A stretch of DNA of 29,498 nt from a virus, in IMG/VR virus record IMGVR_UViG_3300037242_000417, positions 1 through 29,498 of that record; one strand, given 5' to 3'. Under the pieces are notes generated by a model that was not told the DNA's origin, did no database searches, and saw nothing but the letters and a program-made list of their open reading frames with translations. Both the position numbers and the translations under genes were made by a program. This document shows positions 2,207 through 23,670 of this stretch, one piece after another. Each line of letters starts with the position of its first letter. Positions within the stretch are counted from its first letter, which is position 1.

Positions 2207-2650
2207 TCATTTGTATCGCGCCACGCGGGCCAAAACTTCCGCCGGATAATCGCGATTCGATCCGCCGTTCCACGCAAGCAGCGCGCGCGTTTGGTCTCCT
2301 TGATTCGCATCAAACTTCGCGCGCAATTGCCGGCAGCCGAATTCCAGACCCGTCGCCGGATCGCACAATTCCGCCAGCGAAGCCGCTTGGCACCCGAGTT
2401 CGCGCGCCACTTCCCCCATCAGTTGCATCAGTCCCCAGGAAATCGATCGCGTGTAAGCTTCGGTCGCCGAAATTTTCCCCGCGTTGTAAAGCGGTGCAAC
2501 GTAGCGCGCCAGAAATCCCGGCTCGTAGCGCACCGCCCAAGTGTTCCACGCCGATTCCTGCTCGACCACAGCGCACACCAGCGCCGGATCGAGCGCATGC
2601 GCAACCGCCGCAGCACGAGCAAGCGCGATCAGTGCGGCCGATGCCGGCAT
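2207..2650 (-). CDS. Phage endolysin: lytic transglycosylase (SLT/lysozyme-like fold)
   Basis: The 147-aa protein has the hallmarks of a soluble lytic transglycosylase domain. The segment VVEQESAW (about 28-35) carries the candidate catalytic glutamate (Glu32 in the ES motif). SWGLMQLM follows at about 71-78, then AWNGG at about 126-130, equivalent to the usual AYNAG. Such enzymes cleave the MurNAc-GlcNAc bond of peptidoglycan to give an anhydro sugar. There is no signal peptide or SAR anchor, so it should accumulate in the cytoplasm and need a holin. The ATG at 2650 is the first start after an in-frame TGA, although no good Shine-Dalgarno precedes it. The gene is bracketed by the left (2085) and right (2676) halves of a family A repeat. 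A virion-associated role is an alternative. Confidence 0.85.
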   Translation of the reverse strand: MPASAALIALARAAAVAHALDPALVCAVVEQESAWNTWAVRYEPGFLARYVAPLYNAGKISATEAYTRSISWGLMQLMGEVARELGCQAASLAELCDPATGLEFGCRQLRAKFDANQGDQTRALLAWNGGSNRDYPAEVLARVARYK

Positions 2651-5902: not shown

Positions 5903-8818
5903 CTAATTCACGCCGCGAACGATCGCCCACGGATCGGGCATGAGCGACGGGATGAACCGCTGCATTTCAAACCACGCGCCCACCGCATTGGTGCCGAATT
6001 GGAAGGCGACGCGCTCGGCCAAAACATTTATCGGCAACTCCAAATCTTTCGGCGAGGGCGAGACGAGCGGCAGCGTGGGTAGCGCTGTAGCGAACGCTTC
6101 GTTAGCCGCGAAGGCGGTGAGATTCAACGTGCCAGCGCCTTCCGCATACAAAGTGAGATACGAAAATAATTTGCGATGTGCGCGCACGTCGTACTGCTGC
6201 TCGAGATCGTGGCTCAGAAAGAAAAATGTGGTGTAGTAAGCGTCGATCGCGGCGCCGTCGTCGGAATATTGCGCGTCAAGCATTTGATAGATCTTTCCGT
6301 TCGCCGTGCCGTTGCCCAAAAAAAGTTGCGCCGTGCCATCCGCGCGCTCGGCCAGCGTGGCGCAATTCGCCACGATGCTCCACGGGCACCAGCGGCGCGA
6401 GCGCCCGGCGGAAAACAACTTTCCGCTGATCGTGGAAAAGTGATACGGGCCCAGCGCCGCGATTTCGCTCGACGAAAAGCAACTGCGGTAATCGAGCATC
6501 AGCACGATCGAAGGAGTGGTGGCCGAGCCCAGCGGCACGCCGCACAAAATGCGGCGATTGTGCGTATCCACGCGCACCCACAGCGTGTGCGCCGCGGCCC
6601 AATTGATTTGGTCCCACAGCGGCTGAATTTCCTGCGAGATTTTCGTGGGCTCACCGCCATCATATATATAGAGGCCCTGCCGCGCGGCGATCACCGCCCA
6701 ATCTTCGCCAATGTCCACGCCGTTCACGGACGGCGTGCCGATGGTGCGCGAAATTTCGGTGACGGTCCACGAAGCGGGTTCGTTGCCGCTGCTGTCCTGC
6801 GTGGAATACAAGCCGTGATCCTTCGCGAAATATAAAATGCCGCGCAATTCAAACGCAGCGCGCACGGCTTGACCATCGCCGTCCGCGATTTCAAGCAAGC
6901 CGGTGACGCCGTCGTAGCTTTCCGGGCTGCCCGCGCCGGAAGCGCGCACCACGCTGGTGTTGTACGGCTCGGCGGTGGGAAAAATCTCAATGTTGTCGAC
7001 GCCGAATCCGCCGCCCACGCTCGGCGTGCCGTCGGCAAAAACGCGCAGCACCAAATCCGCCGGCACGGTGGACATCGCGGCCGTGAGCGGCGCGATAAAT
7101 TCCTGCCACGCGCTGGTGGCTTGCGCCGCGGTGACTTCAATGCCGGTGGTATTGATGCCGCCCGACGCGCTGTAAAGATGAATGTGCAGCGTGCCCTGCG
7201 TGGCCGGCGGCGAACCGACAGCGCGCACGCGCGCGCGCACTGAGTACGCAGTTTGCACCGCGATGCGCGTGACGCCGAGAGGATCGGCCACCGCGCTCTG
7301 CGTGATCAGTCCGCGCGTGGCGGTCGTGCCATTGCCCAAGATGTCGTACGCGCCGCCCCACACGCCGTTATCGCGCTGGCCGCCGGTGTAAAACGTCGCG
7401 TCGGGAGTCCATCCGAGAGGCACGCCGCTGGTGGGATCGAAGCCGCCGTCGAAAGTGAGATTTTGCCAGTTCGATAATTTATTTCGCTCGCCCCACCAAA
7501 ACATTCTGTCGGAATATCCGATGCCGCCGGCGCATTCGCCGAGCTCAACCAAATTAAAAAGTGGATCGGCCAGCGTGCCGGCCAGCACTTGCGAATCCGA
7601 AAAATCCACGGACCACGTGGTGGTCACGGTGTCATTGATCTGCATTTGCGGCGAGCCTTCATCGCCCGTGGTGTAATAAAACGACGCGCCGCCCGACGCC
7701 GTGAACATCAAAATTCGCGCCACGATGTTCACCAGATTCAGCGGCAGCGGAATGCCCGTCACTTGCGCGCGGCAATTCCCTATCGAGGTCCACGAAATCG
7801 CCGGCGATGGCTGCGTGATGTAGCCCTGCCGCGTGATGAACGCGACCGCGACTTGATGCGTGCCCGCCGCGATTGAGCCGAGCGGACTCGCCGTGCCCGC
7901 GTAGTCGGATTCATTCACGCCCGCTTGCGCGAAAGTGAATTGCGTGCCGCTCGAGATCGACGCGACCGCAAATGTCCCGTTCAAATCCGATGGCGCGCCG
8001 GCCGTGCCGCTCGCGCCGGCTTCGTCGTCGCCGATTTGCACCCAGGTGAAAATTGTGTTCGTGCCATCCACGGTGGCCACGATGTATTCGCCATTGAAAT
8101 CCGTTGTGCCGCCGGTGACGCCGGCGACCAGAATTTCCGCGCCGGCGGCGATCGCCAGTGCCGCGGAAGCGTTCGCGGTGACCACGTCGCCCGAGCGCTG
8201 AATCGTCGCGAGCGCGATCGGCGCGGCGGTGGTCACGTTCGCGATCACAATTTGGTCCGAGCTATCGAGATTGTGCGCCGTGGCCGTGTTCACGGTGACC
8301 ACATTCGACGCGCGCGTGATGCTCGAAATATTCGCAATCACGTCGGCCACCGCCGCGGGTCCCGCGCCCGGACCGACCTGGCTCACGCGATCGAAATAAG
8401 TTCCGTCATATTGACGCGGCAGATCGAGCCCAAATTGCCCGTCGCCAAACGCCATGTATTCGCGCCCGAATAAAGTAGCGGAAGCAGCGCGCGCCCCGGC
8501 CACGATGCCCGACGCAATTTCCGTGAGCACGCCCGGCGCCGAAGAAAGTTCTCCCCACAGCGTACCGTTTGAATCGAGTGCCAGCAGCGTTTGCGCGAGA
8601 TTCTGCTGAATGTACGTTTTCAGATAATTCACGGTGGGATTTCCCGCGATCGGCGTGTAAACCGATTGCAGCCCCGGCCGCGTGCGCACCGCGCCATTCA
8701 AAAACGAAATGTCCTGGCAATCCGGCGAGCAGCCAAACGGCAAATCCGGCGCAGCCATATCGGTGACAAGCCCGCCAAACAAATCCAGCGGAACGTCGGT
8801 TGTGCCTGCGATGCTCAT
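5903..8818 (-). CDS. Large phage neck / tail-stem protein (P22 gp10 or T7 gp12 type, tentative)
   Basis: I place the start at the ATG at 8818, because the 26 extra upstream codons are hydrophobic and not phage-like. The product is 971 aa. The N-terminus has the pattern PLDLFGGL, a cluster of Pro/Cys residues, and DISFLNGAVRTRPGL. I associate such a segment with large stem or DNA-stabilisation proteins of short-tailed phages. Beta-rich repeats follow, including two consecutive modules with DFNGEY and DLNGTF cores (genomic 7889-8107). The C-terminal half has propeller-like strands such as LYIYDGGEPTKI and RRILCGVP. The gene follows the adaptor gene, as in P22 and T7, where the equivalent protein plugs the portal and joins the tail. 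The function is from order and length; the ATG has no clear ribosome site. Confidence 0.75.
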   Translation of the reverse strand: MSIAGTTDVPLDLFGGLVTDMAAPDLPFGCSPDCQDISFLNGAVRTRPGLQSVYTPIAGNPTVNYLKTYIQQNLAQTLLALDSNGTLWGELSSAPGVLTEIASGIVAGARAASATLFGREYMAFGDGQFGLDLPRQYDGTYFDRVSQVGPGAGPAAVADVIANISSITRASNVVTVNTATAHNLDSSDQIVIANVTTAAPIALATIQRSGDVVTANASAALAIAAGAEILVAGVTGGTTDFNGEYIVATVDGTNTIFTWVQIGDDEAGASGTAGAPSDLNGTFAVASISSGTQFTFAQAGVNESDYAGTASPLGSIAAGTHQVAVAFITRQGYITQPSPAISWTSIGNCRAQVTGIPLPLNLVNIVARILMFTASGGASFYYTTGDEGSPQMQINDTVTTTWSVDFSDSQVLAGTLADPLFNLVELGECAGGIGYSDRMFWWGERNKLSNWQNLTFDGGFDPTSGVPLGWTPDATFYTGGQRDNGVWGGAYDILGNGTTATRGLITQSAVADPLGVTRIAVQTAYSVRARVRAVGSPPATQGTLHIHLYSASGGINTTGIEVTAAQATSAWQEFIAPLTAAMSTVPADLVLRVFADGTPSVGGGFGVDNIEIFPTAEPYNTSVVRASGAGSPESYDGVTGLLEIADGDGQAVRAAFELRGILYFAKDHGLYSTQDSSGNEPASWTVTEISRTIGTPSVNGVDIGEDWAVIAARQGLYIYDGGEPTKISQEIQPLWDQINWAAAHTLWVRVDTHNRRILCGVPLGSATTPSIVLMLDYRSCFSSSEIAALGPYHFSTISGKLFSAGRSRRWCPWSIVANCATLAERADGTAQLFLGNGTANGKIYQMLDAQYSDDGAAIDAYYTTFFFLSHDLEQQYDVRAHRKLFSYLTLYAEGAGTLNLTAFAANEAFATALPTLPLVSPSPKDLELPINVLAERVAFQFGTNAVGAWFEMQRFIPSLMPDPWAIVRGVN

Positions 8819-8914
8819 GATGTTTGGTCTCGAAGTGTGAGAATTATTCCAACCGAGCACAGTTAAGAGTGCCTGCGCCACAAATGCACAAATCAACCGC
8901 GATGGTTTTGATCT

Positions 8915-9074: not shown

Positions 9075-9185
9075 CTATATCGGCCGGTCCTTGAATGTTG
9101 TGGGCGGGCGTTTCTTCGGAGCTCGGAGACCGAGCAGAATCATTCCCGTGCAAATTCCGCTAAAGATCAGAATCGGAAATATCAT
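9075..9185 (-). CDS. 36-aa small membrane protein, overlapping the upstream gene
   Basis: A 36-codon frame starts at the ATG at 9185, nine bases after AAGGAG, and stops at 9075-9077. It overlaps the end of the 96-aa membrane protein gene by 26 bp, so translation could be coupled. The peptide is one hydrophobic segment (MIFPILIFSGICTGMILLG) followed by a short basic tail with the sequence RAPKKRPP. This is the layout of a single-span membrane microprotein. The function is unknown; a partner of the upstream membrane protein or a lysis regulator are possibilities. Confidence 0.5.
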   Translation of the reverse strand: MIFPILIFSGICTGMILLGLRAPKKRPPTTFKDRPI

Positions 9186-9450
9186 CTCGAAGGTCTCCTT
9201 CTCTGCCCTCTAACGTGGCGTTTGCTTCTATCTTGATCCGAAAGTATAGCAGAGTGATTCCCGCGACAGCGAAGAAAAGCTCTACCCAGAGCGTTAAAGG
9301 TAGCCATCGGAGCCAGAACATCGAGTGAGAGTAAACGTACTGGTCGGCGGTTCTATCGTGCAACACCATATCCAGCGGAACGAATACGAGAACCAGCACA
9401 CCAATCTCTCTAAGGGATTCTCCCAACAGCCTTCTGTGAATACGATTCAT
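9160..9450 (-). CDS. Two-span small membrane protein
   Basis: The 96-aa product has a short basic N-terminus and two hydrophobic segments (about residues 16-30 and 47-71), the second very rich in Leu, Trp and Phe. A charged acidic tail with several Asp follows. The DNA here (about 9040-9600) is visibly less GC-rich and less GCG/CGC-biased than the structural genes, suggesting a moron or host-derived insert. The start ATG overlaps the stop of a tiny upstream frame by ATGA. No family is recognised. A holin role is conceivable, but the gene lies far from the endolysin. Confidence 0.65.
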   Translation of the reverse strand: MNRIHRRLLGESLREIGVLVLVFVPLDMVLHDRTADQYVYSHSMFWLRWLPLTLWVELFFAVAGITLLYFRIKIEANATLEGREGDLRDDISDSDL

Positions 9451-10134: not shown

Positions 10135-10383
10135 GTGACAACTACTCGAAAATTCGCGCATCTTGTCCCGATCCTGTGCATCGCCGCGCAGATGGCAGTG
10201 TTTTCCATCGAATTTCACCATTGGTTGCCAATCACGAATGTATGGAACGCCGATATGATCGCAACTCTCGTGGCCGTCGTTGGCAGCGTCTACGCCGGCG
10301 TAAAAGCGAATCGGTGGTGGTTCGTGTTGACCGGCATCGAAGCGCTGATTGCGATCTTGCTCGCCGTCGCGCTGGGCGGGTAA
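10135..10383 (+). CDS. Three-span small membrane protein on the opposite strand (holin-like or moron)
   Basis: The 82-aa product from the GTG at 10135 has three hydrophobic segments, roughly residues 8-25, 38-56 and 61-82, the last two separated by a short loop with Lys, Asn, Arg and Trp-Trp. That membrane topology is very unlikely by chance in this GC-rich, Arg-rich sequence background. A TTG at 10117 in the same frame is an alternative start; neither has a strong ribosome site. The gene is on the plus strand, divergent from the gene at 9972 and convergent with the adaptor gene. Class I holins are about this size with three spans, but other small membrane proteins also fit. The function is unassigned. 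Confidence 0.55.
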   Translation: MTTTRKFAHLVPILCIAAQMAVFSIEFHHWLPITNVWNADMIATLVAVVGSVYAGVKANRWWFVLTGIEALIAILLAVALGG

Positions 10384-10632: not shown

Positions 10633-11358
10633 CTAAATTATTGGGCCATACCCCGCGCGCCAGGAATACGGCCGTCGACGCCGCGCGCTTTGCTGCTCGC
10701 GCAACACGGCGCGCGAAATTAAATCTTCGAGCGCGTCGGAGCCGGCGTCGTCCCAGCGCTCGGAGAGCGGCGAGCCGCGTGCGCCCGAGGCCAGCGCCGC
10801 GGTGAAATACGCGATCGGTTCCTGCGCGTTGCGAATCAGCACGGGACTGGTTGCGTCGGTCAAATTCGGCAGCGAAGCCTGATAGCGCAAGCGAATCTGC
10901 GTGTCCTGCGTGGCGCCAAGGAACCACAGGCCGTCGGTGCGCCACTCCCAAAATCCCAGCGCGATTCCCTGCTCTTGCGAAGGCAGGCCGCCGTGATCGG
11001 TGAGGTCGATCATCTCGGCGAAATCGTCGGTGGAACCGTTCGCGCGCTCCCACAATTTCACCGGCACCAGCAAATCGAACGGCAATTGATTCGGCGGCGC
11101 CGTCGCGTCGGTGATGGAAACCTGCAACGAGGGATCCACCGCGCCAACGGCCGGCACCACGAGCAGCACGTCGTCAGTGATGAACGAAGCCGAGCCGACA
11201 TTCGCGAGCGCGCGCTGCACTTTGCGATACGCGGCGTTCGCGTACGGCAGCAGCAGCGTGTCGGTGAAAAGATTGCCCGCGGCGTCGTTCAGCAGCGAAC
11301 GCACGAGCGACGTGATTTGCCCCGCAGTGTTGTAAGCGCTGGTGGCAACGACCGGCAT
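10633..11358 (-). CDS. Head-tail adaptor / connector protein (tentative)
   Basis: The ATG at 11358 follows AAGGAG. The 241-aa product begins with a helical region of the type TAGQITSLVRSLLNDAAG...LLPYANAAYRKVQRAL (about 10-50). A beta-rich middle follows that includes WERANGSTDDFAEM and GFWEWRTDGLWFLG (about 100-150), then a helical, Arg-rich C-terminus. This arrangement is typical of adaptor proteins that bind beneath the portal in short-tailed phages, as in the gp4/gp11 roles of P22 and T7. Its place just before the large stem-protein gene fits. The assignment is by pattern and context; no sequence search was possible. Confidence 0.7.
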   Translation of the reverse strand: MPVVATSAYNTAGQITSLVRSLLNDAAGNLFTDTLLLPYANAAYRKVQRALANVGSASFITDDVLLVVPAVGAVDPSLQVSITDATAPPNQLPFDLLVPVKLWERANGSTDDFAEMIDLTDHGGLPSQEQGIALGFWEWRTDGLWFLGATQDTQIRLRYQASLPNLTDATSPVLIRNAQEPIAYFTAALASGARGSPLSERWDDAGSDALEDLISRAVLREQQSARRRRPYSWRAGYGPII

Positions 11359-12206: not shown

Positions 12207-12478
12207 CAGCCCCGTAGCCTGCCTGCCGGCAGGCAGGGGGCGGCACAATCTAGCCCAGGGCGGAAGCCCTGGGTAACGGAGACCTAAGTAATCTTTCTCA
12301 AATGTTTTCTGGAGCGCCGTAGGTGCGACACAAACAATCGCGGAAATGTAATTTGATCTCACAAATTCAAAACATGTGTCGCCTCTACGGTGCTTAAACA
12401 TTTGAAGAACAGATCTATTTGCGGATGCGTCCCAGGGCTGACGCCCTGGGCTAGGCTGTTTCGTCCCTGCGGGGCTGG
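12207..12478. repeat. Family B MITE-like element, full length
   Basis: This element of about 272 bp has inverted ends CAGCCCCGTAG and CTGCGGGGCTGG. The inner hairpins have CCCAGGGC/GCCCTGGG arms, and the left arm contains the 20-bp palindrome (12218-12237). It is the closest relative of the element at 4164-4456, colinear through almost all its length. Its right end overlaps the last codons of the zinc-ribbon gene (12451-12478). No gene is supported in 12076-12450. Confidence 0.85.
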
Positions 12479-13272
12479 TTTGTTTGCGCGCCGCGATCCT
12501 GGCCTGGAGCAGCTGCCGGAACATTCCTGGGCGCGACCGGCGGCGCGGGTGCGGCGGACCGTGTTGCTGACGACGCATTCGCGGCGGCGGACGTTTCGCG
12601 CGCGGGCGTTGCGATCGGCGTTGCCGTCGCCGCATCCACCGGCTCGCTCCACAATCCCAGCGCCTTCGCCTTCTCGCGATCCAAAATCGCGCCGCAGGAT
12701 TTGCATACAGCCACGTGCGGTTTCACGCGATCGCCGCAGCCAGGGCATTCGGATGTTTCGTGCAACTGATAATTCCATTCGCGCTCGAGCCCGAGCTCAT
12801 GCGCGCCGCGTCGCTGCACGTCGTCCAAGAACAAATACGAATGCGAGCGCGCCCATTCGCGATCGGCTTCGGCGACTTTGCGTCGATAAAAGGCTTCGAG
12901 ACGCCGGCGCGCGTCGGTGATCTCTTCGGCCGTGGGCTCATCGCCGGCGCAAACGAACGCTCCGAGAAAGGAATCCTCGCCCGCGTCGCCATTGATTTCG
13001 CGGCACAAATCGGCGGCGATATCTCGCGCGGAAATATTTATGTCGATGGAGCGCTTATCGCCCATATCGATCACCGCCTTGCGCGGAGTGACGCGCGTGA
13101 GCGACGGCAACGGCGCGCTCGACACCGCGCCGCCGGAGTCTTCATCGGCAGCCTGGGCAGAAGGATGCGCTCCGGCAACGTCAGCGGCGCGAATAAAAAA
13201 CGCGCCGTAGTTGCGGTGCAAACTCCAACTCTGCGCGGTCAGATTTGCGATCACAGCAGTTTCTTCGGACAT
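12451..13272 (-). CDS. Zinc-ribbon phage protein with repeat-derived C-terminus
   Basis: The ATG at 13272 follows GGGAGGAAAC, a strong ribosome site, so the 12 upstream codons are dropped. The product is 273 aa. Residues about 30-140 are of unknown type, with a helical, charged stretch near 115-140 (TAEEITDARRRLEAFYRRK). A four-Cys zinc ribbon follows at Cys176, Cys179, Cys190 and Cys193 (CPGC...CKSC). The remaining 75 residues are Ala/Pro/Thr-rich low complexity. The final residues and the TAG are encoded by the right end of a family B repeat, so the natural C-terminus may have been lost. The role is unknown; it lies in the head-completion part of the block. A structural or DNA-binding protein is possible. 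Confidence 0.75.
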   Translation of the reverse strand: MSEETAVIANLTAQSWSLHRNYGAFFIRAADVAGAHPSAQAADEDSGGAVSSAPLPSLTRVTPRKAVIDMGDKRSIDINISARDIAADLCREINGDAGEDSFLGAFVCAGDEPTAEEITDARRRLEAFYRRKVAEADREWARSHSYLFLDDVQRRGAHELGLEREWNYQLHETSECPGCGDRVKPHVAVCKSCGAILDREKAKALGLWSEPVDAATATPIATPARETSAAANASSATRSAAPAPPVAPRNVPAAAPGQDRGAQTNQPRRDETA

Positions 13273-13544
13273 TTCGTTTCCTCCCGATTCCCCGTTTCCG
13301 TTTGGCATCGACTTCGTGGCGCAGACTTTCCTGACTGTGTGTCTCGCAGCATGTGAAACTGTTGTGCTGGGCCGAATGTTTACTACTGTGGTCTGGTCTC
13401 ACGATATTTACTTGGCCAGATCTAACTAACCCTGCAAACTTGCGCTATCGAGTAGATCGAGGCGTTGTGTACCGCCGCCGTTTGCCCGATGAAGATCTTG
13501 CGACACAGGACGCAGTGCTTTTTCGCGACACGGCTGGAGGCGAG

Positions 13545-14099
13545 ATGAACGCACGCTTTAGATTGCTGCTCTGCACGTTGGTCCTACTGTTCGCAGGTTC
13601 CGCGGCCACCGCTCCCATGGCGGATGCCCGTCACAACACTCCCAAAACTTCTTCGACTTGTTTCGCCGGATTCCCTCAGGGCGTCTTTCACGGTTCGCCT
13701 TACGACGTCACGAACGCCCAGCTCGCGTTCTTCTTGACGGCGTCTTACACCCTTAAAGACCCGACCCTGGCGCATACGAGCATGCCCGGCCTTCTTGTTG
13801 CGGACATGAATCCCGTTACCCCGAAGGTCGCATACTCGGTGGCGGATGGAAGTGCGGGCAACTTCTCCATCCATTTGAATGTTTTTCAGGACGATACCCA
13901 AGATCATTACGGCATGACCGTCGTCGTAAACGGTCCGCCCACGGTGAATTTCAATGGTTACGACGCGTCGCACACTCAAACCGACGTGCAGTACTTCGGG
14001 TTTACGCTGCCGGCCCAATACGTTTCTGGATCGCAGTTGATCCAGGATGCCGGCACGAAAATCGCGACGTATCTATATAGCGGCTGGACGTGTAACTGA
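13545..14099 (+). CDS. Secreted protein of unknown function on the opposite strand (moron candidate)
   Basis: The open frame extends to 13353, but the ATG at 13545 follows GGAGG with four-base spacing. It begins a textbook Sec signal peptide: MNARFRLLLCTLVLLFAGSA, with likely cleavage after the Ala-rich segment near residues 22-28. The mature part, about 155 aa, is beta-rich, lacks membrane spans and contains two Cys, one near the N-terminus and one two residues from the end. These could form a disulphide. Codon use is less GCG/CGC-biased than in flanking genes. It is divergent from the zinc-ribbon gene and convergent with the gene ending at 14204. A secreted product inside a head-gene block suggests lysogenic conversion cargo, but that is inference. 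No family is recognised. Confidence 0.7.
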   Translation: MNARFRLLLCTLVLLFAGSAATAPMADARHNTPKTSSTCFAGFPQGVFHGSPYDVTNAQLAFFLTASYTLKDPTLAHTSMPGLLVADMNPVTPKVAYSVADGSAGNFSIHLNVFQDDTQDHYGMTVVVNGPPTVNFNGYDASHTQTDVQYFGFTLPAQYVSGSQLIQDAGTKIATYLYSGWTCN

Positions 14100-14203
14100 A
14101 GATTCTTTCGTCAGCCCGCCGTTGTACGATCACTACTTTCTGGCTCGACCGATCGCTTCTGTGTTTCCGCCCGAACGAAATTCAGTCATCACATTGAAAA
14201 CCT

Positions 14204-14797
14204 TCACGCCACCGCGACGAACGGCACGCCGTGGAATGCGGGCGCGGCATCGGAGAGCACGGCGTCGGCAAACGAATCGTAATCGCGATCTTCGTGCGCG
14301 TCGCGGCGATCGAGCGCGGCTCGGCGTTCGCCGGAACGCAGGCCGCGGCTCCATTCAATCGCGCGCGCGACGTGCGCGAGCGCCGCGGGCGTTAGCGGAA
14401 TGAAATCTCCGCGCGGAGTTTCGAGCGTGAGGCAATGCTCGTATTCGCCGCGCGAAGGATAAGGACCGAGCGCCGGAATCGCGCGGCCGTCTTCCATCTC
14501 CATCGTGTTGCGAAACCAATCGCGCGGAGCGCCGTAAAATTCCGGCGGCGCCCAGCGTTCGATGTGCCAGCGATTCACGGCGGGATATTTCGGTTCGCGG
14601 CGCAGTTCGATGGCTTCGCGAATCAGCGCGCCCGAGGAGTCGCGATCCTCAAATTTGCCGCCGACCCACGCGAGTCGATTCCATCCCCACACCGCGCGGA
14701 AATTCGCTTCGCCGAAACGATTGATCCCGCCGGCCGCTCGGAGCACGCCCGCGGCCCATGCCGGCGTTTCGTGCGTTTCGCGCGTGACGCGGATCAT
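14204..14797 (-). CDS. Hypothetical phage protein downstream of the major capsid gene
   Basis: The 197-aa product has a Trp/Arg-rich N-terminal half (for example FRAVWGWNRLAWVGGKFED around 33-51 and NRWHIERW near 75-82). A middle with GDFIPLTPAALAHVARAIEW follows, then an Asp/Arg-rich acidic stretch (about 160-180). No catalytic motif, membrane span or signal peptide is visible. It is next after the capsid gene in transcription order, where head-completion or protease/assembly helper genes lie, but I cannot assign one. The start ATG at 14797 lacks a ribosome site; a family C hairpin begins only about 11 bp upstream, so the leader may have been altered. Confidence 0.7.
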   Translation of the reverse strand: MIRVTRETHETPAWAAGVLRAAGGINRFGEANFRAVWGWNRLAWVGGKFEDRDSSGALIREAIELRREPKYPAVNRWHIERWAPPEFYGAPRDWFRNTMEMEDGRAIPALGPYPSRGEYEHCLTLETPRGDFIPLTPAALAHVARAIEWSRGLRSGERRAALDRRDAHEDRDYDSFADAVLSDAAPAFHGVPFVAVA

Positions 14798-14890: not shown

Positions 14891-14908
14891 GAAAACCGGT
14901 TTTGACTT

Positions 14909-15040
14909 TCCGGGTGCCCCATCCTCGCGGTTTCCGCGAGGGTGGGGCTGTCGGTTTAGTTTCCGCCGTAATGCCGATCATGAACGGGAAAAAAAAGACC
15001 CACCCTTGTCCGCCGCGGCGGACAAGGGTGGGCCACCCGG
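14909..15040. repeat. Family A repeat pair
   Basis: The left half is at 14909-14953 and the right half at 14997-15040, with 43 bp between. The right half begins 52 bp after the stop of the major capsid gene. Confidence 0.9.
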
Positions 15041-15092
15041 AAAGACGAAACGCCGGAAACGCGGCGCGATCACGATCGTGACCGCCCGCGCT

Positions 15093-16367
15093 CTAATACC
15101 CGCTCGGTCGCGCCAGCGTATCGATGTAGCTTCCGCTGCGCGGCGAATCGTCCCAGACCTGGAAGCCGGTGTCGAAATAAAATATGAACGCCGCGGAAAC
15201 GCCGCCAGACGCGCCGTAAATCGGAAACACGGTTTGCCCGCCGACCTCGAAGAAATCGATGTCCTTCATGACCGCGCGGCCCCAGTGCGAAAGATCGAGA
15301 AAATCCACGCGCGTCTGATTGGCGTTGATCGAAGATTTGATCGGCACGCCGGACATGGTTTTGCGGCCGGTGAAAAGCAGATCGAGATCGCTTGCGCGTC
15401 CGCCGCTGCCGCCTTCTTTGATCACCTGGCTGATGGTGATGCCAAGATTCTCCCAAGCATGTTCTTGCTCGACCGATGTGTACGCGATCAGCTTGCCGAG
15501 CTGCGAAATTCCCAACGCCTTGCGCACTTTGTTGATCGCCAGACGCACATAGCCGGGCACGAGCGCGGAATTTCCCGCGTTCACGCGCGGCGTCGCGAGT
15601 TGCTGCGGATACGTGGCGCGATTCAAATTCAGCCACGTGCCGGTGGTCGCGTTGTTCTGATGATACGGCACGCCGTAAAGCGAAACCGGCTGCGCGCCGG
15701 TGAGGCCGTCGTGCACGATCACGTCATTGGCGCTGGTGCCGGCGGGCACGTTGTCGACCACAATCGTTTGCGTCGAGCTGATCGGATCGGCTTGCAGCAC
15801 GGTGGTGGTCACGCTCGCGGCCGTGTTGCGATTGGTGGTCAGCGTGGGATCGTAAATCTGAATCACTTGGCCAACGTACACGAGCGCGGCGCCGGGCGGC
15901 ACGTTCATCGTGAACGTCGATCCCGAAATCGAACCGATCGTGCCGAGCACGCCGTTGCCGCCGGTCTGAATAACTTTGTCGAGGAACGAGCGGAATTGTT
16001 TCATGCCGTTCGCGACTTCGCGTTTCACGGCGTTCTCGATTGCTTTTTCCTTGTTGTTCGTGGCGTATTCGACGAGCTTCGAGATTTCCACCGCGAACCG
16101 GAAAAAGATCGGCGAAATTTGCGCCACGTCGTAGCTGGTGCCCGAGCCGCGGCCCAGATCTCCGCCATCGGGATTATAACTGCCGGCCAATCCGCCGGGA
16201 TTCACTTGCAACGGCAGCCGCATATTTCGCGAGCTGACGCGTTCCACGTCGCCGCGCGCCTGGATCATGGTGAGCAGCACGTCGTCCCGTTCGTAAAGCA
16301 GCGGCACTTTGTCCCGCACCTTTTCCAGTTGCAACGCGATGGTCTGCGCATTCTGCATTTGTGCCAT
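15093..16367 (-). CDS. Major capsid protein (HK97-fold, P22-like insertion domain; tentative)
   Basis: The 424-aa product follows GAGGTGA. The N-terminus (about 1-60) has AQTIALQLEKVRDKVPLLYERDD followed by a segment of the type SSRNMRLPLQVNPGG. An acidic/aromatic region reading SPIFFRFAVEISKLVEYATNNKEKAIENA (about 85-115) matches the spine-helix region of HK97-type coat proteins. A beta-rich insertion of about 100 residues (about 140-235) resembles the insertion domain of P22-like coats. The C-terminus ends in strands with VFPIYGASGG and FYFDTGFQVW. The gene follows the scaffold-like gene, the usual order portal-scaffold-coat. It should form the icosahedral shell. The family assignment is by pattern and order, not by search. 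Confidence 0.85.
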   Translation of the reverse strand: MAQMQNAQTIALQLEKVRDKVPLLYERDDVLLTMIQARGDVERVSSRNMRLPLQVNPGGLAGSYNPDGGDLGRGSGTSYDVAQISPIFFRFAVEISKLVEYATNNKEKAIENAVKREVANGMKQFRSFLDKVIQTGGNGVLGTIGSISGSTFTMNVPPGAALVYVGQVIQIYDPTLTTNRNTAASVTTTVLQADPISSTQTIVVDNVPAGTSANDVIVHDGLTGAQPVSLYGVPYHQNNATTGTWLNLNRATYPQQLATPRVNAGNSALVPGYVRLAINKVRKALGISQLGKLIAYTSVEQEHAWENLGITISQVIKEGGSGGRASDLDLLFTGRKTMSGVPIKSSINANQTRVDFLDLSHWGRAVMKDIDFFEVGGQTVFPIYGASGGVSAAFIFYFDTGFQVWDDSPRSGSYIDTLARPSGY

Positions 16368-16793: not shown

Positions 16794-18029
16794 CTACATC
16801 GCGAAAATATCGTCGTCGCTCGTGCGCGCGTAATCAATTTCGCGCGGGCGAAGTGCGCGCGCCGCGCCACGACCGGCCGCATCGCCGCTCGCCGCTGCGC
16901 CGACGTCCACGCGGCGCGCGGCAGCTTCCGACCGCGTGGCTCGAGTGCGCGCCGTGGAGAGCACCGAATTCGTCCACTCGCCGATCACGCGTCGCGCCAC
17001 CGACGGCAGAATTTGCCGCGCGCGTCCGGAGAGCAACGACGCCACCTGCTGCTGTTCCGCCACGCCGAATCGCCAGCCGCGCAGCGATTCGCCCACTTGC
17101 GCGGAAAGCTGCGCGTCCGCCGCGAGCAATTTGCCAACTTCGCCGAAAATATCTTCGCCGATGCGCTTCACCGCACCCGCGGCCACGCCTTCCGGCAACA
17201 CTTGCTCGAGCGTCCGCGTGATCGCGCCGCGCACATCGCGCGCCACAGCTTCGTTAGTGGAATTCTCGAACGCACGATACGATTCCGCGGGAAAGCTCCC
17301 TTGCGCCGCGGAAGTCCCTTGCGAATTCGCGGCGTTAGCCGCGCCGGTCAGCGCATCGCGATCCGCACGGATCGCTTTCCGTGAATCGTTCTGGCCGTTG
17401 GCGTTTCCTGCGGGGGCATTGCTCTGCCTGTCGTTGTCAACAAGAGCCGGGGTGGGCCCATGCGCAGCCGCCTCGCGGGCATCGCCGTTCCGTCTCTCGT
17501 TGGCTTCCCTGCTCGTTCCATCGCGTTGCGCGGCGGTGATGCCGAGCAGCCGCGCAGCCTCATCGAACATCGCGCGAAACGCTGCCGGGTCGCTAGCGAA
17601 AAGCGATTGCGCGAGTGCGGTGCGCGATGCGGCGTCTCCGGAATAGTAGCCGGCGTCGAATTCGGCGAGCGACGTGACCGGCAGCGTGCGCTCAGCATTC
17701 GCATCGCGTTTCGTGTGCGATTCTGATTCCGGTTTGGCGGCGCGTTCCTCTGCGTCGGGCGCGTTATCATCGTCGCGCCGATCGTCGTCGCGCGAATCTT
17801 CCGCGCGCTTTTCTTCCCTGCTGTCGTTGCGTGGGCGTTCTTCCGTCTCGCGGTTTTCCGCGCCAGGCGCCGTATCGCGCGACGCGAATTCCGCTTCGAT
17901 CGCGTCCCCCGCGCTCTGCGAATCGGAGCCGCGCGCCGCCGATGCCGATTCCGCCTCAATCCCCAGAATCGCCTCATCGGAAAGCGGCGCCGTTTCCGTT
18001 GGCGGTGCAATTTGCGCTGTCGGTGTCAT
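16794..18029 (-). CDS. Scaffold-like protein between portal and major capsid genes
   Basis: The 411-aa product is strongly charged and Ala-rich. Residues about 45-115 are an Asp/Glu/Arg-rich region with almost no hydrophobic residues. A folded-looking segment (about 117-165, TSLAEFDAGYYSGDAASRTALAQSLF) is followed by another low-complexity stretch. The C-terminal part (about 255-380) is helical, ending in a basic/acidic tail. High charge, helical termini and the place between portal and coat genes are typical of capsid scaffolding proteins, which are needed for procapsid assembly and leave before or during packaging. There is no sequence motif to prove it. The start ATG follows GAGG. A head protease fusion was considered, but no catalytic triad is visible. 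Confidence 0.65.
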   Translation of the reverse strand: MTPTAQIAPPTETAPLSDEAILGIEAESASAARGSDSQSAGDAIEAEFASRDTAPGAENRETEERPRNDSREEKRAEDSRDDDRRDDDNAPDAEERAAKPESESHTKRDANAERTLPVTSLAEFDAGYYSGDAASRTALAQSLFASDPAAFRAMFDEAARLLGITAAQRDGTSREANERRNGDAREAAAHGPTPALVDNDRQSNAPAGNANGQNDSRKAIRADRDALTGAANAANSQGTSAAQGSFPAESYRAFENSTNEAVARDVRGAITRTLEQVLPEGVAAGAVKRIGEDIFGEVGKLLAADAQLSAQVGESLRGWRFGVAEQQQVASLLSGRARQILPSVARRVIGEWTNSVLSTARTRATRSEAAARRVDVGAAASGDAAGRGAARALRPREIDYARTSDDDIFAM

Positions 18030-18063
18030 CGAATCAACCTCGCGGGATCGTGCATTTGCTCTT

Positions 18064-18180
18064 CCGGGTGCCCCATCCTTGCGGTTTGGGCAAGGGTGGG
18101 TCTGTCGGTTTCATTTCTTCTTAGCATTCGGGAACAGAAAGACCCACCCTTGCAAACGGCGCAAGGATGGGGCACCCGGA
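18064..18180. repeat. Family A repeat pair
   Basis: The left half is at 18064-18104 and the right half at 18140-18180, only 35 bp apart. The right half begins 15 bp after the portal stop and the left half ends 35 bp before the start of the scaffold-like gene. Confidence 0.9.
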
Positions 18181-18195
18181 AGAGCAACGCCCGCG

Positions 18196-20958
18196 CTAAC
18201 GCGATTTCGTTTTATTGCGCCCCGGAGCCGCGGCGGCGTTTGCGATCGCGGCGGATTGCTGTTGCGCCACCAACGCGCGTTCGTGCGCGGCGGCGTGCGC
18301 GCGCACATTCGCAAAGCCCAGCGGATTTTCCATGCGCGCCGCCTGACCGGTTTCCGTCGACGCCCAGCGCCGAATTTCTTCGAGCTCCGTCGCGTGGTCG
18401 TCGAGCAAATCGTCGACCGGCACGGACGGCAGAATAATTTCGCCCGCGATAATTTCGCCATCCCCCGCGCCCGCGATCGCGGCCGGGGACGGCAGCGCGG
18501 CCGCCGCGTCGCCGTTCCTGGGAGCGCCATTCGCCTGAATGGCGCCTTGCGCGTTTTCATTCGGCGGCGAAGAGCGGGCGGAGTCGAACTCCGCCCCTGC
18601 AGAAGACGACTGTACTGCGGAAACATTACGATCCCCGCGCGGCGCGACCGGCACCCGCACCGGCACAATCAACGGCGCCGACGTGAGGAGCTGCTGAGTC
18701 TCGCGCATCTGCTTCACGCGCGCGTCTTCGCCGGGCACCACAAGCTCCGAGAGCCCGAGGCAACTCTTGATGTAGCCGATATTCGCGGGATCGGTGAGCG
18801 CGCGCTGCACCATCGGATCGTTCACCGACATCAATTGTTGAATCACGGCGCGCTGCTGCGATTTTTGACGCGGAAACGCTTCGTCGCTCTCCGGATGCGC
18901 GAAAATGTTGCCTTTCAAATCGGCTAGGCGAATCCAGCGCGAACGAAAAATGCCGTCTTCGCCGAGCAGCGGAATTTCCACGTCGTCGGGCCGATTCTTC
19001 CTGAAGCAATCGACGCCGAGCAGCATCACGTCGGAATAAAAGTTTTTCAGCCTCCGCCACACCAGCCCCAATCGGCCGAGCGCTTGATCGCGCGCCATGG
19101 CGTATCCCGTGGCGGTTTTCTGCGATTCCATTTCGCCGCCGAACACCGCGGGAAATAGTCCGGAAAGAAATTGCGGGATCGGCCCCATCAATTCTTCCTG
19201 ATGACGCAGCATATCGGGCGGCACTTGCGCCGGCGCGGGCTGGAAAAAACTCGCGGCCAGCGGCTGACCCGGGCGCGCGCGCGCCGGATAATGCGCGGCG
19301 GGCTCGGCAGTCTGCTGTTGCAGCGCGTCGAAATCGATCACTTGCGGATCGGCGTAAATCGGCGGAATGCCGTACTCGTAAGTTTCCGCCTGAATATTCG
19401 AGAGCGTGTTGTAACGCTCCTGAATTTCCACCAGCGAGCTGCCCACGGCCGGGCGATTCTGACCGTCGCCGGGCAGCGCGTGCAGCACGCGCCAGCGATC
19501 GTCCATCGTTTCGCTGCGCGATTCGCAATACGTGTCGCCGGCGAATCCGGCGTAGCAGCCGTCGGGGAAAAGTTGCAGCAGCGCTTCGCGCACCGCGGCG
19601 TCTTCAATCGCGTGAAAAGCCCACGGACGAATCCAGGTGCGCGAAAAAGTCACAAGATTTACCAGCGCGTCGCCGGGCAGCGTTGTCGGCATGCCCTGCG
19701 CGATCGAAACGCGCGAGGCGCGCGCGTAAACGTCGTCGGCTTCCGCGGGACCGCCCATTTCGATTTTGTCGGCGGCGTGCGGATACGCGGCTTTCAATTT
19801 CGCGCGATGCACTTCCATCTGCCATTGCAGATAGGGAAATTCGTGCATCTCGTTGGCCCACACCGGCGTGTTCAATTCCAATCCGCCGACGATGGAAATT
19901 ACCTCTTGTCCATTCGGCACGCGCCGCGAGCCAACCACACGCGGCACGCAAACCGTTTCCGCCGTGTGCAAATCATCGGCCGTGAGCGCCGCGCCGCATG
20001 CCGAGCACGCGGTCTCGGTCTCTGCGCGACTCCGCGAACTCTGCGTCTCAGCGTTATCTTTCTCCGGCAGCTTCCCTGCTGCTGAAGCCTCTGTAATTCC
20101 TCCGGCTGCCGGCGTTTCGATTCCGCATTGCGGGCAAACGTAATAATCCGGGCCGAGCGCGATTTCAACCGGCTCGATATTCGGTTCATCGTGCCAACCG
20201 AAACGTTGCGCGTCGGCCACGTAGCGCACATAGCCGCCAACTTTGCCGTCGGTCCACAGAAAAAATGCAAGCGCCGTGAGCATGCGCTCGACGTGATTGT
20301 TGCGCTCGACCAAATCCGCGACTTCGCTCGCGACGCGCGCCGCCGATAAATCCAGCAGCGATTGCGCCGACTGCGGATAAAAGCGCGTAGTCGGCACATC
20401 CTGACTGAGCACCGAAATAAACGAGAGCCCGAACGCCTGGTACAAATTGGTGACGAATTGATAGCGCGGCATGTCCTCCGAAGATTGCCCATTGTGCGCG
20501 CCGACTTCCGTCGGCAAATGCCATTGCTGATCGCCCGGATTCCACCACGCGTATTGCATGCCCTGCCAAAAAAGTCGCGCCTGGCGAATACGCCGAATTT
20601 CGTAGCGTCGCGCGGAAAGTCCCTCTTCTCGATACTGAACCACCAGGCTGCGCAGAGCGTTCACGATCCGCGGCGCGAGTTCTTCCAGGCGCTCGTTGTT
20701 CGGACCGAGTTCGTCGGCCGATGGCAGCGCGATCGCGGGCGCATTTGCTCCGGGAGATGGCGCGTTGTCGCTCGGCGGCACAACGCCGGGATTGCTCCCA
20801 TCGCGCTCGACAATTTCGCCCGGCGCATTCGGCGCAGCGCCGCCGCCGTTACCCGCCGCGCCACCATTCGCCGCGGCGTTCGCTCCACTTGTCGCAGAGG
20901 CCGACGCACCCGACGTCAGCGCAGCCCATGCATCTTCGAGATTAATCGCTGTCGACAT
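18196..20958 (-). CDS. Portal protein (P22-like podovirus type) with a zinc-ribbon insertion
   Basis: The 920-aa product is the longest head protein here and larger than the roughly 725-aa P22 portal. After an Ala/Gly-rich N-terminal extension (about 1-80) comes a portal-like helical region (about 85-240, including LFWQGMQYAWWNPGDQQW). A zinc-ribbon-like insert follows with Cys275, Cys278, Cys318 and Cys321. The core (about 345-720) includes QERYNTLSNIQAETYEYGIPP and ESQKTATGYAMARDQALGRLG, the latter typical of portal stem/wing segments. A long low-complexity C-terminal tail completes it. Twelve copies would form the packaging channel that engages the terminase. It lies downstream of terminase and upstream of the scaffold-like gene, as expected. 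The identification is by motif, size and order. Confidence 0.85.
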   Translation of the reverse strand: MSTAINLEDAWAALTSGASASATSGANAAANGGAAGNGGGAAPNAPGEIVERDGSNPGVVPPSDNAPSPGANAPAIALPSADELGPNNERLEELAPRIVNALRSLVVQYREEGLSARRYEIRRIRQARLFWQGMQYAWWNPGDQQWHLPTEVGAHNGQSSEDMPRYQFVTNLYQAFGLSFISVLSQDVPTTRFYPQSAQSLLDLSAARVASEVADLVERNNHVERMLTALAFFLWTDGKVGGYVRYVADAQRFGWHDEPNIEPVEIALGPDYYVCPQCGIETPAAGGITEASAAGKLPEKDNAETQSSRSRAETETACSACGAALTADDLHTAETVCVPRVVGSRRVPNGQEVISIVGGLELNTPVWANEMHEFPYLQWQMEVHRAKLKAAYPHAADKIEMGGPAEADDVYARASRVSIAQGMPTTLPGDALVNLVTFSRTWIRPWAFHAIEDAAVREALLQLFPDGCYAGFAGDTYCESRSETMDDRWRVLHALPGDGQNRPAVGSSLVEIQERYNTLSNIQAETYEYGIPPIYADPQVIDFDALQQQTAEPAAHYPARARPGQPLAASFFQPAPAQVPPDMLRHQEELMGPIPQFLSGLFPAVFGGEMESQKTATGYAMARDQALGRLGLVWRRLKNFYSDVMLLGVDCFRKNRPDDVEIPLLGEDGIFRSRWIRLADLKGNIFAHPESDEAFPRQKSQQRAVIQQLMSVNDPMVQRALTDPANIGYIKSCLGLSELVVPGEDARVKQMRETQQLLTSAPLIVPVRVPVAPRGDRNVSAVQSSSAGAEFDSARSSPPNENAQGAIQANGAPRNGDAAAALPSPAAIAGAGDGEIIAGEIILPSVPVDDLLDDHATELEEIRRWASTETGQAARMENPLGFANVRAHAAAHERALVAQQQSAAIANAAAAPGRNKTKSR
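18576..18596. repeat. Palindromic repeat inside the portal gene (C-terminal tail)
   Basis: GGGCGGAGT-CGA-ACTCCGCCC is a perfect nine-base inverted repeat. It lies in the Ser/Ala-rich portal tail and preserves the frame. Confidence 0.6.
20010..20060. repeat. Repeat-like segment in frame within the portal zinc ribbon
   Basis: Read on the minus strand this contains AACGCTGAGACGCAGAG followed by further GAGTCGCGCAGAG repeats. Sequences of this type (AACGCAGAGACGCAGAG) are, from memory, dispersed repeats in Acidobacteria-like genomes. It encodes DNAETQSSRSRAETE between the two CxxC pairs of the portal ribbon. Confidence 0.45.
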
Positions 20959-21839: not shown

Positions 21840-21900
21840 CAGTCGTTCCGTCACAGTTGTCACCAAGCGCGCAAGCGATCTCGTCGCGGCCTTTGCCTTT

Positions 21901-22047
21901 CCGGGTGCCCCATCCTTGCGGTTTTTGCAAGGGTGGGTCTGTCGATTTGTTTTTCGTTCGGGCGTCGACCTGCCGGTCGCCGGGTGTTGATCGCAAACGG
22001 AGAAAGAAAGACCCACCCTTGCACACTGCGCAAGGATGGGGCACCCG
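21901..22047. repeat. Family A repeat pair
   Basis: The left half is at 21901-21940 and the right half at 22009-22047, with 68 bp between. The right half begins 43 bp after the stop of the large terminase gene. Confidence 0.9.
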
Positions 22048-22089
22048 CAAATGCAAAAGCCGGAAACCCCGCGCGAACACTCGGCGCGA

Positions 22090-23670
22090 TCACCATCTCC
22101 GCGGCAACGGCGCGGGGGCGCGTCCGGCGCGCGCTTCGCCGGCGAATTTGCGCAGCCAAATCGCGCGCGACGTCGGATCCTGCGCGGGAATGCGCGCGGC
22201 GAGCGCCATCTCGACGGGCATGCGCGCGGGATCCATGCGCGATTTCAAACCGTAGCGCGCGGAATCGGCGGGATCATCCCCATCGATTTTGCGAATGTCT
22301 TCCACGTTCGTGGTGTCGCGCGTGAGCGTCGGTAAGCATTCGAGCAACCGCTCGCACGCGCTGGAAATTTGCCACTGACCGGTTTCCATCATTTGATACA
22401 TGAGCATCCACCCGCCCACGCGATCGTTATCCGCCGGCGCGGGGCGCGGCAATCCGGCCGCGGCCAGACCGTCGCCCAATTGTTCGGCGATCGAAGCGTC
22501 GGCCGTGCGCTCGGCGAACGCGTCCGGCGAAAGAAATATTTCGGAGATGCGTTCCGGTTGCCCCTCGCGTCCCACGCTGCGTTCGGCGATCGCCGCGGCC
22601 AGCATGCGCGGCGATAGATGATTTTGCACCAGCTCGCGGTACGTGAGCGTTGATCCATCCGGCCGCGCGGTGTGCCAATAAACCGCGCTGGGATGCTCGA
22701 ATCCCCAATCGATCGAAATCCAGCGCGGCCACCACTTTTCAAATTGAATGCTGTGCGAAGCCACCACGTGCCGCGCGTGATCGAACGAATCGAAATATTG
22801 ACCGGCGAAAAGATTCCAATCGCCCTCGAGAAACGCCTGCCGTAAAGCCCGCGGCAGCGAGCGCAGCGTTTTCAAATATCTTTCGTCGTTCGCGTAGATC
22901 GGGTTGTCGCGAACCGTGGCGGGTATGAAATCGTAGTCACCGGGATCGTATTCGTCCGCATCTTCCATGCCCGGCGCGGCGCGCTTATCGATCCACAGCG
23001 CTTTCACCCAGGCGTGCCCCGTGTTGCCGGGGTTCGTTGCGCCGGCCATTCTCGGAATCGCATCCGCCAGCCGGCAGCGATTTCGCGACGTCAGAAATTG
23101 CCACTGTCGCAGCGTGAAGTGCGTGAGCTCATCGATGCCGATGAAAACGTACTCCGCGCCCTGATATTGATAAATATCGTTCTCGCTGGCCGAATATCCG
23201 AAGCGCGTCGTGGAACCGTTGTTCCAGGTGACGATGTGCTTGGTGTCGTTGTAACGAAGATACAAATCGCGCGGAACGTCGCGCCGGAAATAAGTCAGCA
23301 GCGAACTTTCAAGCTCCGGAAACGTGCGCCGCAAAAGCAGCGTGTCCACGCCCTTATATTTGTTGGCCTGGTAGATCGTTTCGTACAACAGCGCTTTCGT
23401 TTTGCCGGGTCCCGCCGCGCCGCCGAACAATCGGTATTTCGCCGGAGATTCGTGAAATTCTTTTTGCCGCGGATGTGGGTCGTAAAGAGTGGCGATTTCG
23501 ATCGCGCGCGCCGGCGTCTCGCTCAGCTCAGGCGCGTGTTTTCCGCGCTGCTTGGACGAAGCATCACCGCGCTCCTTCTTCGGCGCTGGCTTTTTCTTTC
23601 CCTTGCGCTCCACGTGTGGCCGCGATTCATTTCTGGTTTTGGTGTGCCTTTGCTTTTCCGGGCGCCCCAT
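22090..23670 (-). CDS. terL: Phage terminase, large subunit (ATPase + nuclease)
   Basis: The motor that packages DNA into the procapsid. The 526-aa product carries a Walker A motif GGAAGPGKT (about 83-91), a Walker B strand ending VFIGIDE (175-181) and the coupling motif ATNPGN (211-216). A C-terminal RNase H-like nuclease domain follows, starting at WISIDWGFEHP (Asp321) with further acidic residues such as Asp383 and Asp416 in suitable places. The length is normal for a podovirus or siphovirus TerL. The N-terminal 50 residues are Lys/Arg-rich and atypical. The nominal ATG at 23670 lies inside a family A repeat half and has no ribosome site; a GTG at 23613 is an alternative. It precedes the portal gene through two small genes. 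Confidence 0.95.
   Translation of the reverse strand: MGRPEKQRHTKTRNESRPHVERKGKKKPAPKKERGDASSKQRGKHAPELSETPARAIEIATLYDPHPRQKEFHESPAKYRLFGGAAGPGKTKALLYETIYQANKYKGVDTLLLRRTFPELESSLLTYFRRDVPRDLYLRYNDTKHIVTWNNGSTTRFGYSASENDIYQYQGAEYVFIGIDELTHFTLRQWQFLTSRNRCRLADAIPRMAGATNPGNTGHAWVKALWIDKRAAPGMEDADEYDPGDYDFIPATVRDNPIYANDERYLKTLRSLPRALRQAFLEGDWNLFAGQYFDSFDHARHVVASHSIQFEKWWPRWISIDWGFEHPSAVYWHTARPDGSTLTYRELVQNHLSPRMLAAAIAERSVGREGQPERISEIFLSPDAFAERTADASIAEQLGDGLAAAGLPRPAPADNDRVGGWMLMYQMMETGQWQISSACERLLECLPTLTRDTTNVEDIRKIDGDDPADSARYGLKSRMDPARMPVEMALAARIPAQDPTSRAIWLRKFAGEARAGRAPAPLPRRW

Follow-up and report, generated by a model that had tools for sequence, protein, structure and literature searches.

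An open reading frame that runs against the strand of a phage head-gene block, and whose product looks as if it were made for export, raises the question of whether it is the cargo of a temperate phage or a part of something else. P0001 is such a frame. It encodes 184 amino acids followed by a stop codon and lies in a window of 29,498 bases, the whole stretch of DNA analyzed here, which is an IMG/VR virus record without flanks. A sequence-only reading had placed the gene exactly where we find it and had described it as a secreted protein and suggested that it is lysogenic-conversion cargo. The features that bear on this question are collected in Table 1, where the functions of the scaffold and portal genes are assigned by position (and, for the latter, size). 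We use g14204, zr, scaffold, portal, and gnat as working names. The start of the zinc-ribbon gene was set at 13272 rather than 13308 because a ribosome site precedes the ATG there, and the product of the putative portal gene matched no portal family in Pfam or PHROGs searches.

Table 1. Features of the window that surround or belong to P0001
Feature	Position	Strand	Basis or remark
SLT transglycosylase (endolysin-like)	2207..2650	-	Pfam and PHROGs family match
Large block protein g5903	5903..8896	-	Conserved among related loci
SU10-type adaptor protein	10633..11358	-	Just below Pfam cut-off
Conserved block gene with weak zinc-ribbon match, directly after the gap	12451..13272	-	Start at 13272
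Gap holding P0001, 931 bp	13273..14203		Shorter in most relatives with this gene order
Ribosome-binding site GGAGG, 4 nt 5' of the P0001 ATG	13536..13540	+	Sequence
P0001, orphan gene, predicted 184-aa exported protein	13545..14099	+	ORF, codon signal, no relatives
Signal-peptide-like N-terminus of P0001, to A28; cleavage after A23 also possible	13545..13628	+	Sequence, heuristic
Conserved block gene g14204, directly before the gap	14204..14797	-	No NCBIfam match
Two of the window's 20 REP-like repeats, next to the capsid gene	14898..15048		Repeat search
Major capsid protein	15093..16367	-	PHROG 14242, E 1.2e-4; NCBIfam capsid_maj_Podo below cut-off
Putative scaffold gene, between portal and capsid genes	16794..18029	-	Conserved; function by position
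Putative portal gene, large and conserved, between terminase and capsid genes	18196..20958	-	Position, size
Terminase large subunit	22090..23670	-	Pfam Terminase_6N, PHROG 979

Several lines of evidence indicate that P0001 is probably a real gene. The length of the frame is only moderately unlikely by chance, as an ATG-initiated frame of at least 184 aa arose in 14 of 1,000 dinucleotide shuffles of the gap. The codon signal is stronger. In frame, P0001 scores +0.10 bits per codon, whereas the other five frames score from -0.42 to -0.85 and the best of 500 shuffles reaches -0.09. Measured against 125 windows of 184 codons drawn from seven structural genes, its score is an outlier (none of the 125 is that low; mean 0.42, minimum 0.18), and its GC3 of 0.679 is mildly low, with 14 of these windows equal or lower. 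Because the signal exceeds that of the other frames and of the shuffles and yet falls outside the range of the structural genes, we read P0001 as a gene whose codon use is unlike that of the block, a difference that had been claimed beforehand and that holds for codon score more than for GC3. The open in-frame stretch just upstream (13353-13544) scores -0.19, which supports the ATG at 13545 as the start, and the ribosome site that had been called clear is indeed present in front of it. As to the suggested expression independent of the late genes, no sigma-70-like promoter site was found for P0001 (0 sites), with the caveat that Acidobacteriota promoters may differ from such a model, and the one terminator-like site was at chance level.

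The N terminus, MNARFRLLLCTLVLLFAGSAATAPMADA, is organized like a Sec signal peptide, with a charged part, a hydrophobic part, and an AxA motif, as judged by eye and by a crude script of our own, consistent with the signal peptide proposed earlier. Two cysteines, C39 and C183, fall in the predicted mature part, again as proposed, and a third, C10, lies in the predicted signal. An AlphaFold model made without an alignment had a mean pLDDT of 37, a value that says nothing for or against a real gene and that would make any fold match meaningless. These observations bear on the simplest alternative, that P0001 is a chance open frame in an accessory stretch and is not expressed. Such a frame would accord with the 14 shuffles of equal length, with the lack of a detectable promoter, and with the absence of a homologue from every collection searched, but we consider it quite improbable, given a codon signal beyond that of 500 out of 500 shuffles and clearly the best of six frames, and given that a GGAGG at normal spacing and a coherent signal-peptide layout meet at the same start.

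The searches for relatives of P0001 found none in Pfam, PHROGs, NCBIfam, PADLOC, or PDB sequences, so the earlier statement that it belongs to no recognized family stands for the first four of these. None was found in viral or genome contigs, by scans able to detect close relatives only, and phages and plasmids gave three matches each at E values of 5-8, which we take as chance. At E <= 1, 85 of 396 genomes from the phylum gave a match, and the best one (0.006, 16 bits) contained internal stops; in the 15 of these genomes that we inspected, every alignment was short and partial, to other proteins or to stop-containing frames, and none was a full-length relative. There was no match at 0.01 in the 89 genomes of the likely host family, none at 10 in six named genomes, and no tblastn match at E <= 0.01 in 151 related loci, refetched duplicates included.

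Of these loci, 79 reach across the gap from g14204 to the following block gene, and all 79 lack P0001, which is therefore not a conserved virion part. The sequence-only reading had named the contrary finding, presence at the same locus in all relatives as a virion component, as one that would count against it. A protein associated with the particles of a single sublineage, such as a decoration protein or a secreted particle accessory, is a narrower proposal, and in its favor P0001 sits inside the structural block and, once particles are released, a small secreted protein could conceivably coat them. We regard this as very improbable, however, because P0001 has a Sec-type N terminus, unlike a cytoplasmic assembly protein, differs from the block in codon use, is absent from relatives, and is encoded, as had been stated, on the strand opposite to the block genes on both sides of it.

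The gap itself appears to admit unrelated genes. In 37 of the 39 loci with the same gene order, the distance from g14204 to the zinc-ribbon gene is 25-570 bp, and in the window it is 895 bp between match ends (one contig is counted twice in this comparison, as L015 and L075). The two longer gaps contain a family 2 glycosyltransferase gene (L008) and an ExbD-type gene (L145), both on the strand of the block, and the same gap has been filled by three unrelated genes in three lineages, the window among them. Because of the unrelated genes in L008 and L145, we read P0001 as a private insertion at this place.

Antisense genes are also present in block gaps of other loci. Counting the window, 24 of 101 loci yielded 42 such genes, of which 12 encode an export-like N terminus; refetched duplicates and terminase-only loci were left out of this survey, and some of its viral and genome contigs may be one organism. 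Five of the ten antisense genes scanned with Pfam matched a family (NHL, TonB C-terminal, Hcp, MFS, and one weak match). The idea that exported antisense genes are a special trait of this family of loci was dropped. At a lax threshold, export-like N termini were present in 14 of 48 antisense genes versus 28 of 171 sense accessory genes, but at stricter thresholds (5/26 versus 22/111 and 3/13 versus 20/73) the antisense share was no higher. One of the antisense genes, L144:11700-12416 (-), lies between the capsid gene and g14204 and encodes an Hcp-family protein (PF05638) with an export-like N terminus. The window has a second small antisense ORF at 10192-10383 (+); its codon score is positive, and its partly hydrophobic 63-aa product matched no family. 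A 96-aa membrane-type ORF at 9160-9450 (-), which has a GC content of 0.48, scores negative under the codon model of the block, and matched no family, is perhaps another foreign insert.

Whether the block is a mobile phage was approached through its distribution. With the capsid protein as query, we retrieved 68 viral loci from IMG/VR and 30 from Acidobacteriota genome contigs. In the family of genome G001, 43 of 89 genomes had a capsid match, some as fragments only, and the order as a whole gave 44 of 95, while an even draw of 396 genomes across the phylum gave G001 and one remote match only. The family includes G003, Candidatus Acidiferrum typicum, which NCBI places in Candidatus Acidiferrales.

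For nine genomes chosen for their long contigs, together with the window, we compared some 50-100 kb surrounding the capsid gene and found the flanks to be common to most of the nine. NCBIfam matches over cut-off confirm the flank genes nuoI (NuoI), ypdA (YpdA), nadE (NAD+ synthase), erpA (ErpA), and icd (isocitrate dehydrogenase); three further genes we take to be ctaB, ccmF, and dnaE, and a ParA match was below its cut-off. Across the family, nuoI is located 13.4-43.4 kb upstream of the capsid gene on the same strand in 12 of 12 genomes that have both on one contig; for nadE, 14 of 15 such genomes have it downstream, at a distance of 17.5-29.3 kb and on the opposite strand. Wherever the three genes share a contig (10 genomes), nuoI and nadE enclose the block, also in the most diverged of these genomes, G443, whose capsid protein is 58% identical and which has 11 block genes behind nuoI in the order of the window. 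In 15 genomes without a capsid match, nuoI and nadE are 1.8-17.7 kb apart, with the reservation that MAGs may be incomplete. The three of these empty sites that were examined (G422, G426, and G446) have nadE, nuoI, and one or two common neighbors, with no block gene.

A site fixed in all genomes was rejected as a universal rule, since the block is off-site in at least three. In G440, nadE is 129 kb away and on the wrong side; in G447 and G470, it is on another contig although tens of kilobases of contig follow the block. No integrase was seen among the non-block genes of G447 and G470 in the 25 of 60 matched Pfam families listed. Close to nuoI, L202:4722-5120 (-) encodes a 132-aa protein that is 52-78% identical to matches in five other genomes, and it is possible that this protein and its homologues are a part or a regulator of the locus.

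The block has also diverged along with its hosts. In seven genomes, the pairwise identities of block proteins correlate with those of flank proteins (six genomes for the nadE correlations, which rest on 15 non-independent pairs). Capsid and nadE trees were built for the 29 of the 43 genomes in which both genes are full length, and they have 15 of 26 splits in common, compared with a mean of 0.2 and a maximum of 3 over 500 label shuffles. The Mantel correlation between the two proteins in these 29 genomes is 0.70, a value that none of 10,000 permutations reached. Of the supported capsid splits, 14 of 18 are present in the nadE tree and 4 are absent, and the capsid protein evolves at about 0.56 times the nadE rate. 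The dN/dS values of block genes in five genome pairs are 0.03-0.23, indicating purifying selection, with dS of the same order as in the flanks; two block comparisons were lost to saturation.

The content of the interval is consistent with this history. Between nuoI and nadE of G003, 30 of the 34 called proteins were scanned, and they include terminase, major head, SU10 adaptor, and endolysin families as well as GYD, CarboxypepD_reg, and zinc ribbon domains. No integrase, replication, or repressor family was found in these 30 proteins, most of which match no family, so that control genes could be missed. Likewise, no integrase (PF00589) appeared between nuoI and nadE among the matches listed for the 10 two-flank genomes. 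Because the block keeps mostly to one site, between nuoI and nadE, and has diverged alongside its host, the locus looks domesticated in this family rather than like a mobile lysogen, and it fits an old, mostly vertically inherited locus of phage origin. A phage with strict site specificity could produce the same fixed place, but would not readily produce the co-divergence. Inside the G003 block, the sense-strand gene L216:13223-16672 (+) encodes a 1149-aa protein with an export-like start and has matches in four other compared genomes; it is probably the source of the carboxypeptidase-regulatory-like hit.

Mobile relatives do exist. Of 18 related viral records, three have an integrase (L045, L066, and L067) and may represent mobile phages related to the fixed locus; in L066, the zinc-ribbon gene and g5903 stand before the adaptor gene. 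None of the 18 carries nadE, so that the viral records give no proof of a chromosomal origin. In the midpoint-rooted capsid tree, the window groups with viral contigs L002 and L003 and then with L005, L007-L010, and L014-L016. The next clade out contains genomes with the block on-site, namely G001 (nuoI only), G480 (nadE only), and G481 (both). Closest to all of these as an outgroup is the integrase-bearing L067.

Morons, or lysogenic-conversion genes, are single accessory genes between structural genes, with deviating codon use and an export-like product. P0001 resembles them in each of these respects and in its absence from relatives, and it could be a classical moron, the cargo of an active temperate phage that is expressed from the prophage and alters the surface or periplasm of the host. 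The antisense orientation, the accessory character, the integrases in 3 of 18 viral relatives (L067 being the closest outgroup to the window's clade), the window's lack of host flanks, and its nearest relatives being viral contigs are all compatible with this idea. We nevertheless judge it unlikely, if well short of negligible. The nearest genomes with usable flanks (G001, G480, and G481) carry the block at the common host site, the block co-diverges with its host under purifying selection, and no integrase or replication family was detected in the 30 of 34 proteins scanned between the G003 flanks. P0001 differs from morons in that its carrier looks mostly host-fixed and in that no promoter or terminator of its own was found. 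Of the cargo interpretation put forward by the sequence-only reading, the accessory, antisense, and export-like nature of a gene absent from related loci is upheld, while lysogenic conversion is doubtful for a block that is mostly fixed between nuoI and nadE and that diverges with the host in the nearest genomes.

Taken together, we think it rather probable that P0001 is a real, lineage-private gene for an exported protein in a permissive gap of an old, mostly host-fixed locus of phage origin. According to this interpretation, P0001 would have been inserted against the grain into a gap of a head, packaging, and lysis-type locus that has been kept, mostly by vertical inheritance, in chromosomes of the one Acidobacteriota family that contains Candidatus Acidiferrum. 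The window's own copy would likewise be chromosomal, a placement taken from its nearest relatives with genomes. P0001 would presumably be transcribed from its own promoter and, to go by its N terminus, exported through Sec as a mature protein of about 155-160 residues, in which a C39-C183 disulfide may tie the two ends together. It would then act for the host in the periplasm or outside the cell and would have no role in particle assembly. P0001 alone is one more orphan; its locus matters more.

A mostly fixed, host-diverging block of phage origin under purifying selection across a family of soil bacteria is how a domesticated system would be expected to look, and the closest known comparison is with gene transfer agents (GTAs). 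Judged on its genes, through which it is known here, the block shows in most genomes the hallmarks of a GTA that can be recognized at the sequence level. Like RcGTA and its analogues, it combines genes of the head, packaging, and lysis type, no integrase or replication family was found among its scanned proteins, and it is mostly vertically inherited under purifying selection. RcGTA is long-tailed. The block differs from these systems in its occurrence in Acidobacteriota, in its SU10-like adaptor and a capsid that weakly matches a podovirus model, and in its spacers with host-type inserts. We propose tentatively, with somewhat less than even confidence, that the window is part of an undescribed GTA of Acidobacteriota (Candidatus Acidiferrales) that would have a podovirus-like head and a short-tail-type adaptor, would have been locked between nuoI and nadE since the ancestor of the family and lost in several lineages, and whose gaps would be a landing place for host genes, P0001 included. 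The block is a concrete GTA candidate with a named site and an empty-site comparison.

In the portions of Fogg 2024 (PMC11841831) drawn on here, GTAs appear to have arisen several times, so that a lack of homology to a known one would not exclude a GTA, and finding those distant from the Rhodobacter type is described as an open problem in which GTAs and prophages are confused with each other in both directions. GTA clusters are often taken for prophages according to the same account, which also explains why such elements escape notice, and the window is likewise filed in IMG/VR. The acidobacterial prophage clusters 140 and 153 of Eichorst et al. 2018 (PMC5900883), found mostly in Granulicella and Terriglobus with 35-38% amino-acid identity, are similar in being prophage-like clusters common to several acidobacterial genomes. 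That comparison is by description only, and the part of the description available here differs in that it does not mention a fixed chromosomal site. In Sphagnum metagenomes, one shared phage-like contig aligns to an Acidobacteriaceae genome, and the authors, in the sections concerned, consider prophage-derived host regions and name GTAs as one possible outcome (PMC12142844). Compared by description only, that case differs from ours as a single contig in another family, with neither a fixed site nor co-divergence described in those sections. GTAs have also been named, in an excerpt of a study of soil viromes, as a possible source of non-viral reads (PMC6172770). Our own results suggest that some of the 68 IMG/VR matches may represent host chromosomal DNA and not viruses. 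Among the titles and abstracts listed from open-licence PMC papers, we found no report of acidobacterial GTAs, domesticated prophages, or Acidiferrales phages.

The spacers of the window are marked by REP-like palindromic repeats, GGGTGCCCCATCCTTGC...GCAAGGGTGGG and the reverse, of which there are about 20 copies between 2073 and 23712. All are in spacers (including 14898-15048, 18052-18193, and 21889-22062), and none is inside a called gene. Elsewhere, L124 has 7 copies and 31 other sequences (the nine genome stretches and 22 further loci) have 0-3 each, with none in G001. We had considered the repeats as proof of chromosomal residence, and these low counts reduced them to a hint. Finally, ARAGORN calls a tRNA-Leu (cag) at 27469-27561 (+), antisense inside the large ORF at 26857-29496, which is possibly a false call or a decayed insertion mark.
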